Source: Alphaproteobacteria bacterium
Lineage (GTDB): Bacteria; Pseudomonadota; Alphaproteobacteria; Micavibrionales; Micavibrionaceae
NCBI GenBank assembly: GCA_013215815.1
Contig: JABSQP010000004.1
Coordinates: 1-64,000, forward strand
Direction: 5' to 3'
DNA: 64,000 bases
Made by a program: the position numbers and the translations under genes. Below the pieces are notes generated by a model, which saw only the letters and a list, made by a program, of their open reading frames with translations, was not told where the DNA came from and made no database searches. Below are positions 43,735 to 45,944 of the stretch, piece after piece. The number at the start of each line of letters is the position of its first letter. Within the stretch, counting starts at the first letter, position 1.

Positions 43735-44334
43735 TTACTTAATCATCTCCATAAAGCGACGTTTTATATTTTCATCATCTTTAAAGCACCCTGTGAAGGA
43801 TGTTGTCACTGTCATAGCGTTACGTTTTCCGACGCCGCGTGTGCTCATGCATTCATGTCCAGCTTCGATGAATACAGCAGCACCTTTGGGTTGTAATGTT
43901 TGAACAATAGTGTCCGTGATCTGATGAGACATATTTTCCTGAGATGTCAGGCGTTTTGCATAGATATCAACGATGCGGGCAAGCTTACTAATGCCGACTA
44001 CTTTTTTATCAGGCCAGTAAGCGACATGGGCGACGCCGTTAATCGGTACGATATGGTGCTCACAATGAGAGGCAAAATCAATGTTTTTGACGAGGACGAT
44101 ATCGTCATAGTTCTCGATATCTTCGAATGTCTTTGTCAGTTCTTCTGCGGCATTTTGGTTGTAGCCCTGAAAAAATTCTTCAAAAGCACGCACATAACGC
44201 GCTGGCGTTTCTACTAAACCTTCGCGCGTTGGATCATCACCGGCCCAACGAAGGAGAACTTCAACAGCAGCCTCAGCCTCTTTGCGAGATGGGCGCTCTA
44301 CATTTTTTTTCGGTTCGAATTTTTCAATGCTCAT
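43735..44334 (-). CDS. folE: GTP cyclohydrolase I
   Basis: REGLVETPARYVRAFEEFFQGY, SHCEHHIVPI, SKLARIVDIYAKRLTSQENM, ECMSTRGV. Start placed at MSIEKF. Confidence 0.95.
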   Translation of the reverse strand: MSIEKFEPKKNVERPSRKEAEAAVEVLLRWAGDDPTREGLVETPARYVRAFEEFFQGYNQNAAEELTKTFEDIENYDDIVLVKNIDFASHCEHHIVPINGVAHVAYWPDKKVVGISKLARIVDIYAKRLTSQENMSHQITDTIVQTLQPKGAAVFIEAGHECMSTRGVGKRNAMTVTTSFTGCFKDDENIKRRFMEMIK

Positions 44335-44388
44335 AATATGTGCTACCATATAATTATATTTAACGCTTTATATGACGGAAAAACTCTT

Positions 44389-44514
44389 ATGGCACAAGAC
44401 ATAAAACACAATAAATCCTGCGGATGTGGTAGCTCTTGCGGTTGCTGCGGATGTTCCTCGTGTTGCTGCTGCGATGGTTGCGGCAAACTGTGTGCTTGCG
44501 ATTGCTGCGCATAA
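44389..44514 (+). CDS. 41-aa ultra-cysteine-rich small protein/uORF (15 Cys)
   Basis: MAQDIKHNKSCGCGSSCGCCGCSSCCCCDGCGKLCACDCCA*; in divergent folE-cysS intergenic region, 56 nt upstream of cysS; absent from ORF track. Confidence 0.75.
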   Translation: MAQDIKHNKSCGCGSSCGCCGCSSCCCCDGCGKLCACDCCA

Positions 44515-44570
44515 ATCTATAATCCTCCCGAAATTACAGTAAAAAGGGCGCGTTTTGGCGCGTAAAACAC

Positions 44571-45944
44571 ATGTCTTTAAAGCTTTATAACTCTTTGACT
44601 CGTCAAAAAGAGGCGTTTGAACCAATAGATCCAAATCATGTTCGTATGTACGCGTGTGGTCCAACGGTCTACAATTATGCGCACATTGGGAACGCGCGTA
44701 TGGCTGTGGTCTTTGATTTGTGGGCGCGCGTACTCAAACATCTATACCCAAAAGTAACGTACGCCTCAAACATCACAGATGTAGAAGATAAGATTATGAT
44801 CGCAGCCCAGGAAGCTGGCGTGCCGATTAAAGAGATTACAGAGAAGTACACGAAGATCTATAACGATGATATGGCGACGCTTGGTGTGAATTTACCAGAC
44901 GTACAACCAAAAGCGACCGAGCACATTCAGGAGATGATTGATCAAATTAGTAGTTTGATTGAACGCGGTCATGCCTATGAAGCTGAAGGGCATGTGCTTT
45001 TCCATGTGCCATCTGATCCATCGTATGGCGCTTTATCTGGTCGTAGCCGTGATGAACAAGTCGCAGGTGCGCGTGTAGAGATTGCTCCTTACAAAAAGGA
45101 TGCAGCTGATTTCGTCTTGTGGAAACCAAGCACAGAAGATCAGCCTGGTTGGGACAGCCCGTGGGGTTTTGGTCGTCCAGGTTGGCATATTGAATGTTCA
45201 GCGATGGCCGAGAAACATTTAGGCCTTCCATTTGATATTCATGGCGGCGGCGCGGATTTGAAATTCCCGCATCATGAAAATGAAATTGCACAGAGCTGCT
45301 GTGCGCATGGATGTTCGGATAAGCCGCAAGACTATGTGAAGTATTGGGCGCATAACGGGTTTGTGACGGTTGAAGGAGAGAAGATGTCAAAATCACTTGG
45401 CAATTTCCTTCTTGTTCATGACCTCATTGAACAATATCCCGGTGAAGTACTCCGTTTGACATTGCTAAGCGCTCATTATCGTCAACCTCTTGATTGGAGT
45501 GAACAGGTTCTTCATCAAAGCCAAAAGCTTCTTGATCGTTTGTATCGTAAGCTTGAAGAACTCAAAGATATTGAAGCAGTCGCGCAAGAAATTCCGGAAG
45601 GTGTCTTAAAAGCACTGTGTGATGATTTGAATACGCCGCAAGTTTTGGCGGAGCTGAATAAGCTTATCAAAGAAAAAGAAGGTGGCGAACTTAAAGGAGC
45701 ACTTTTAGCGATTGGTGACATCCTAGGAATCTTGGGGCAAGATCCAGAGGAGTGGTTTACTGCTGACACAGAAGGTGTATCAGACGAAGATGTTCAAAAA
45801 ATTGAAGCCTTGATTGTAGCGCGTATGGAAGCCAAAGACGCCAAAGATTATGCACGCGCGGACAGTATTCGTGATGAGCTTTTACAAATGGGTATTGAAA
45901 TTAAAGATACGCGTGAAGGCGTGACCTGGGAGAAGGTTGCTTAG
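44571..45944 (+). CDS. cysS: Cysteinyl-tRNA synthetase
   Basis: YACGPTVYNYAHIGNARMAVVFD, GWHIECSAM, GEKMSKSLGNF. Confidence 0.98.
   Translation: MSLKLYNSLTRQKEAFEPIDPNHVRMYACGPTVYNYAHIGNARMAVVFDLWARVLKHLYPKVTYASNITDVEDKIMIAAQEAGVPIKEITEKYTKIYNDDMATLGVNLPDVQPKATEHIQEMIDQISSLIERGHAYEAEGHVLFHVPSDPSYGALSGRSRDEQVAGARVEIAPYKKDAADFVLWKPSTEDQPGWDSPWGFGRPGWHIECSAMAEKHLGLPFDIHGGGADLKFPHHENEIAQSCCAHGCSDKPQDYVKYWAHNGFVTVEGEKMSKSLGNFLLVHDLIEQYPGEVLRLTLLSAHYRQPLDWSEQVLHQSQKLLDRLYRKLEELKDIEAVAQEIPEGVLKALCDDLNTPQVLAELNKLIKEKEGGELKGALLAIGDILGILGQDPEEWFTADTEGVSDEDVQKIEALIVARMEAKDAKDYARADSIRDELLQMGIEIKDTREGVTWEKVA

Follow-up and report, generated by a model that had tools for sequence, protein, structure and literature searches.

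A conserved Cys-rich small ORF tied to cysS in one alphaproteobacterial family may encode a metallothionein-like peptide

The stretch of 64,000 nucleotides analysed here, called the window, contains a 41-codon Cys-rich ORF directly upstream of cysS, the gene for cysteinyl-tRNA synthetase. This ORF is almost certainly a genuine gene with a conserved translation product. On present evidence, all of it drawn from sequence, we think it probable, with ample room for doubt, that the ORF opens the cysS unit as its first cistron and encodes a new metallothionein-like peptide, whose main role would be to bind metal or thiols. The locus is laid out as follows.

44389 to 44514, plus strand: the Cys-rich ORF, 41 codons with 15 Cys, identified by translation and by its relatives in 10 further genomes.
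44571 to 45944, plus strand: cysS, cysteinyl-tRNA synthetase, 457 amino acid residues (Pfam PF01406, E = 6.8e-120).
43735 to 44349, minus strand: folE, GTP cyclohydrolase I, the divergent neighbour (Pfam PF01227, E = 5.2e-69); its true start is probably at 44334.

The predicted product, MAQDIKHNKSCGCGSSCGCCGCSSCCCCDGCGKLCACDCCA followed by a stop codon, has 41 residues. The first-pass annotation described an unlisted ORF of 41 residues and 15 Cys between folE and cysS, lying 56 nt before cysS and co-oriented with it, with a run of four Cys. Translation and the Pfam matches agree with this description in every respect: the stop codon ends at 44514, cysS starts at 44571, both reading frames are on the plus strand, and CCCC is present in the peptide. 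The 15 Cys fall within one stretch of 31 residues. The runner-up ORF in the 64 kb window has 8, and in 30 shuffled copies of the window (first-order Markov) the densest stretch has 5 to 7.

We inspected the sequence before cysS in 93 family genomes: 10 from the window's genus, groups of 9 and 73, and G076. The first-pass annotation had proposed looking for Cys-rich small ORFs before cysS in related genomes, and named the lack of either the ORF or its position in relatives as a result that would tell against it; relatives were found in 10 further genomes, and both the ORF and its position are conserved. In all, 11 of the 93 genomes, from five genera, have the ORF, each directly upstream of cysS. 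Five of the 10 genomes of the genus are carriers (G000, which is the window's, G009, G002, G001 and G006); their ORFs occupy the same position, have 37 to 49 codons and 12 to 15 Cys, begin with M(A/T)QDI and end in C-G/D-C-C-A/G. The six carriers outside the genus are G058 (MTSKCECGCANCNCEGTCGPDCNCGCDCCK), G059 (MTSKSKCECPNCTCDGPCGPSCACGCACTK), G124 (MTSRSKCTCKDCKCGGQCGDKCSCSCCR), G107 (MNCNCTQCECKNKCGKSCDCSCCK), G036 (MDCLCTQCDCKKPCDKTCDCSCCK) and G076 (MTHQSCSCKKCDCHGNCGKNCACGCCK); the cysS-upstream sequence of the last is identical to that of the public MAG contig JAIXWE010000117.1. Across all members, aligned as A2, the length is 24 to 49 residues with 9 to 15 Cys.

The ORF is absent from the other five genomes of the genus, an absence that counts against a metallothionein. 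Two of these, G004 and G005, retain an apparent decayed start, ATGCTTATAACTCAAGATATAAAAGCA, in which ATG has become ATA and QDIK is still legible, so that loss is the simpler reading for those two. On the CysS tree, the carriers are spread in such a way that eight events of gain or loss are needed; well-supported branches force five or more of these. The shared Cys pattern and the decayed copies argue for repeated loss, and independent gains would be the less favoured alternative.

The position of the ORF is strict. When 142 genomes of the order were searched with a profile, nine matches reached E ≤ 0.01, each of them immediately before cysS; with the two genus members that fell short of this cut-off counted in, the position holds in 11 of 11, and no copy away from cysS was found in these genomes. 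The divergent gene on the other side varies. In the genus, in g43 and in G124 it is folE; G107 has another gene there, G036 a dihydroorotase-like one, and G076 a dihydroorotase that differs from it. The first-pass annotation gave weight to the folE neighbour; since these last three genomes exchange the neighbour and keep the ORF with cysS, a dependence of the ORF on folE is rejected.

The ORF product has two parts.

44389 to 44445, plus strand: N-terminal extension, MAQDIK and variable extra Cys, present only in the window's genus (alignments A1 and A2).
44446 to 44508, plus strand: nine-Cys core, residues 20 to 40, CGCSSCCCCDGCGKLCACDCC (alignment A2 and exact DNA pattern match).

The core, which the first-pass annotation had missed, is common to the 11 sequences and reads C-x-C-x2-C-x-C-x3-C-x3-C-x-C-x-C-C, that is, nine Cys in 21 residues. 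Eight of these Cys are invariant in 11 of 11 sequences and the ninth is present in 10 of 11 (alignment A2). The surplus Cys of the window sit in the extension, which is limited to its genus. Both TGC and TGT are used in eight of the nine core Cys columns, which argues that the residue is kept and not the DNA. The pN/pS ratios of eight pairs, 0.28 to 0.62, rough as they are with synonymous sites near saturation, indicate purifying selection on the ORF. The spacers are small and polar. Only 5 of the 129 non-Cys core residues are FILMVWY, against a fraction of 0.33 in neighbouring proteins (binomial P ~4e-16, with related sequences pooled and not independent), and none of the 129 is aromatic. In contrast, FILMVWY make up 21 of the 41 non-Cys residues in the Rhodobacterales leader peptides that were met before cysS in this comparison.

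The fixed Cys spacing and the polar spacers are the strongest argument for a metallothionein. The predicted ORF product shares sequence traits with that class: it is short and very Cys-rich, with a CxC/CC/CxxC arrangement, few large hydrophobic residues and no aromatic ones in the core. The first-pass annotation had offered a metallothionein-like metal buffer beside FolE and CysS as its second hypothesis; the metallothionein-like part gains from the Cys spacing, the scarcity of hydrophobic residues, the purifying selection and a promoter-like site described below, and the part concerning folE falls away. No known family was matched, which counts against a metallothionein. Searched up to E = 10, Pfam and NCBIfam matched none of the five genus members, known metallothionein families and Rfam gave none for the ORF, and the best PDB match, the wheat Ec metallothionein, is not significant (E = 2.9). 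Profiles A1 and A2 found no new genome beyond the order among 385 genomes of the class, a weak negative, because the A2 profile at E ≤ 0.001 misses even the window's own copy. Across the phylum, in a set of 399 genomes, the exact core DNA pattern matched just TGY repeats apart from the window.

By composition, the predicted peptide resembles metallothioneins, and no curated family model places it among those of the SmtA/PmtA type. SmtA, PmtA and BmtA are also small Cys-rich bacterial peptides; the known bacterial metallothioneins are described as having a GATA-type zinc-finger fold, commonly with His ligands (PMC10612145), whereas the window peptide has no Pfam or NCBIfam match. The short fungal Cu-metallothioneins of the Neurospora/Agaricus type, with 26 residues and 7 Cys, are likewise very short and CxC-rich with small polar spacers, and follow the pattern [CXC]-X5-[CXC]-X3-[CXC]-X2-C (PMC4755600). 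The core differs in having nine Cys arranged CXC-X2-CXC-X3-C-X3-CXC-X-CC and in being bacterial and tied to cysS; the likeness is one of length and CxC style rather than a demonstrated homology.

We propose that transcription of the cysS unit starts from a promoter, P1, that belongs to the ORF, and that the ORF, as first cistron, has a ribosome-binding site of its own. With its nine conserved thiolates, in CxC and CC clusters, the peptide would hold Zn(II) or Cu(I) in a small cluster and would act as a metal or thiol buffer. Two reasons for co-expression with cysS may be proposed: synthesis of the peptide would draw heavily on Cys-tRNA, and the synthetase, too, is a zinc enzyme. A second promoter, P2, across the end of the ORF may serve cysS as well in the window's genus. 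The elements concerned are these.

44341 to 44354, plus strand: putative promoter P1, with an extended -10 TGCTACCAT or an overlapping TATAAT at 44349 to 44354, about 35 to 40 nt before the ORF.
44369 to 44384, plus strand: 5′ element TATATGACGGAAAAA, conserved in the DNA alignment and including a weak SD (GGA).
44496 to 44523, plus strand: putative cysS promoter P2, TTGCGA-16-TATAAT, overlapping the end of the ORF; TATAAT starts 3 nt past the stop codon.

Ten of the 11 members have a site of the extended -10 type 29 to 39 nt ahead of the ATG, a consensus match and not proof of a promoter. The similar TGTGCTATACT of G006 lies farther upstream because of an insertion. The 5′ element, between the divergent folE and cysS, is found at this place in every one of the ten genus genomes; the five that lack the ORF all retain TATATGRCGGAAAA or a near variant, and the element may be a regulatory site of folE or cysS. 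The ORFs of G036, G107 and G076 have a good SD. The putative P2 scores 10 of 12 consensus matches, with 0.9 such sites expected in shuffles, and TATAATC is the best conserved block between the ORF and cysS within the genus. A P2-like TTGCG(A/G/C)-16-TATA(A/G)T at a fixed position is present in four of the five genus carriers and in both g43 members (6 of 11). Through such a site, cysS could bypass the ORF, which we count in favour of a metallothionein. Coding for Cys may be the sole reason why the -35 half is retained, and the block holds a CCUCC-like sequence that could pair with the downstream SD in G058 and G059. For both reasons, P2 is a promoter that we infer.

The strict linkage to cysS is the strongest argument against a metallothionein, since a free-standing one need not adjoin cysS. 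It leads to the explanation that we consider next, possible and on the whole unlikely, in which the ORF acts in cis and the peptide has no function: scarcity of Cys-tRNA would stall ribosomes in the ORF, and the stall would raise cysS expression, either because a hairpin that covers the start region of cysS is opened or because Rho is blocked. A Cys-codon leader of this kind was the first hypothesis of the first-pass annotation. It predicts the position that is found, upstream of cysS alone in 11 of 11 genomes, with several different upstream neighbours, and it is weakened by the fixed spacing and the polar spacers. With 9 to 15 Cys codons, any single one would be dispensable to a leader, yet eight positions are invariant; nor would a leader need to avoid hydrophobic residues, the Rhodobacterales leaders being rich in Ile.

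Cys-codon leaders have precedents. In the same class, uORFC-8-2 is a Cys leader upstream of cysS with 145 examples in Rhodobacterales (PMC8632094). It resembles the present ORF as a Cys-codon uORF before cysS in Alphaproteobacteria, and differs in having two tandem Cys, usually at codons 14–15, two stems and an intrinsic terminator, whereas the window-type ORF has 9 to 15 Cys in fixed spacing, is polar and has no terminator. In mycobacteria, uORFs with runs of Cys codons near the stop precede cys operons (PMC1262725), and poly-Cys leaderless uORFs have been described (Canestrari 2020, cited within PMC13236596). These too are reported as Cys-codon-rich small ORFs before a sulfur-related gene, which in their case is not cysS.

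Other Cys-rich uORFs were met before cysS in the course of the comparison. Five Rhodobacterales loci (L089, L090, L095, L110 and L111) have short Ile/Cys-rich uORFs about 140 nt upstream of cysS, such as MNCICIIICCITC and MTRTTCITCCIIC. These appear, from place and kind, to be the published uORFC-8-2 motif, and Rfam 15 gave no gathering-level match for it at the five loci. Two Hyphomonas loci (L073 and L115) have uORFs of 12 to 33 codons ending CPACCCCR and CTCCC, about 120 to 180 nt upstream of cysS, possibly further Cys leaders of a different type. In a Parvibaculaceae MAG (L042), a 30-codon ORF with 8 Cys, MTMRPTTCCRTSCCLPGGCAATCACCPSTV, lies 180 nt before cysS, and a GC-rich inverted repeat comes after the ORF. 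Separately, in Roseovarius gaetbuli (L087, 1430 to 1528, minus strand), an Rfam PYLIS_3 match (45.4 bits, gathering 38) is perhaps a trimethylamine methyltransferase-like gene and not a pyrrolysine site.

In the interval before cysS, the window has the following hairpin.

44549 to 44562, plus strand: CGCGU-UUUG-GCGCG, a small and weak GC hairpin ahead of the cysS start, with a stem sequence that varies among species.

The first-pass annotation saw no obvious terminator hairpin before cysS, and a terminator scan of the window likewise found none between the ORF and cysS, only this weak 5-bp hairpin without a U run. By inspection, a stem followed by a U run is present in G002 alone among the 11 members, and a classic intrinsic-terminator attenuator is not supported. 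Hairpins do cover the cysS SD or AUG in six members (G124, G076, G107, G036, G058 and G059). The region between the ORF and cysS is also more structured in carriers (median z -1.9, against +0.2 in 81 relatives lacking the ORF; Mann-Whitney P = 0.009), which favours a role in cis and speaks against a metallothionein. The loss of the Cys-rich part together with the downstream region in G004 and G005 points the same way. Against a leader, SD and AUG pairing in carriers is not above that in the relatives lacking the ORF (P = 0.47 and 0.96), the consensus fold of four genus members has 4 pairs at -0.98 kcal/mol, which gives little sign of conserved RNA structure in the genus, and P2 would bypass the leader. 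In G006 (L008), the interval holds a long palindromic insertion, AATCGTCATTGCAGG...CCTGCAAT...ATGACGATT, resembling a small mobile palindrome, and a second insertion lies upstream of the Cys ORF.

A further explanation, which we regard as improbable, would make both the chemistry and the position of the peptide matter. The precedent, again from the class, is CutF of Rhodobacter capsulatus, a Cu-binding leader protein that lets the stem-loop shielding the cutO ribosome-binding site unfold (PMC9973294). Here, the nascent Cys-rich peptide would sense the metal or thiol state on the ribosome, and pausing would open a hairpin over the cysS ribosome-binding site. Such dual control would account at once for the protein-level conservation, the strict cysS linkage and the hairpins, and the CutF/CruR system likewise has a small Cys-containing ORF. 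That ORF is followed by a stem-loop shielding the ribosome-binding site; a candidate for such a stem-loop is present in several relatives and weak in the window. However, CutF is exported and has DUF2946, CxxxC and a Pro-rich stall-like motif, whereas the window peptide has no Pfam match to DUF2946, no visible signal peptide and no Pro-rich end or stall motif. The genus hairpins are weak, P2 may bypass the ORF, and cysS has no known reason to respond to metal. If a sensor of this kind were at work, the nine-Cys cluster would link metal or thiol stress directly to the supply of Cys-tRNA through cysS translation.

That the ORF is non-functional, a chance open frame or a TGY repeat expansion, is hardly credible: the patchy presence in 11 of 93 family genomes would suit it, and it is rejected by a Cys density far above that of the shuffles and refuted by a pattern common to five genera, with synonymous Cys codon changes and a fixed position.

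We return to the metallothionein-like peptide that we prefer. To our knowledge, very short bacterial metallothioneins without a zinc-finger fold have hardly been described, and annotation tends to overlook ORFs of 24 to 49 codons. A peptide locked to cysS is a test case for whether Cys-rich leaders work through their codons, in cis, or through their chemistry, in trans, a question that extends to the Cys leaders of mycobacteria and Rhodobacterales.
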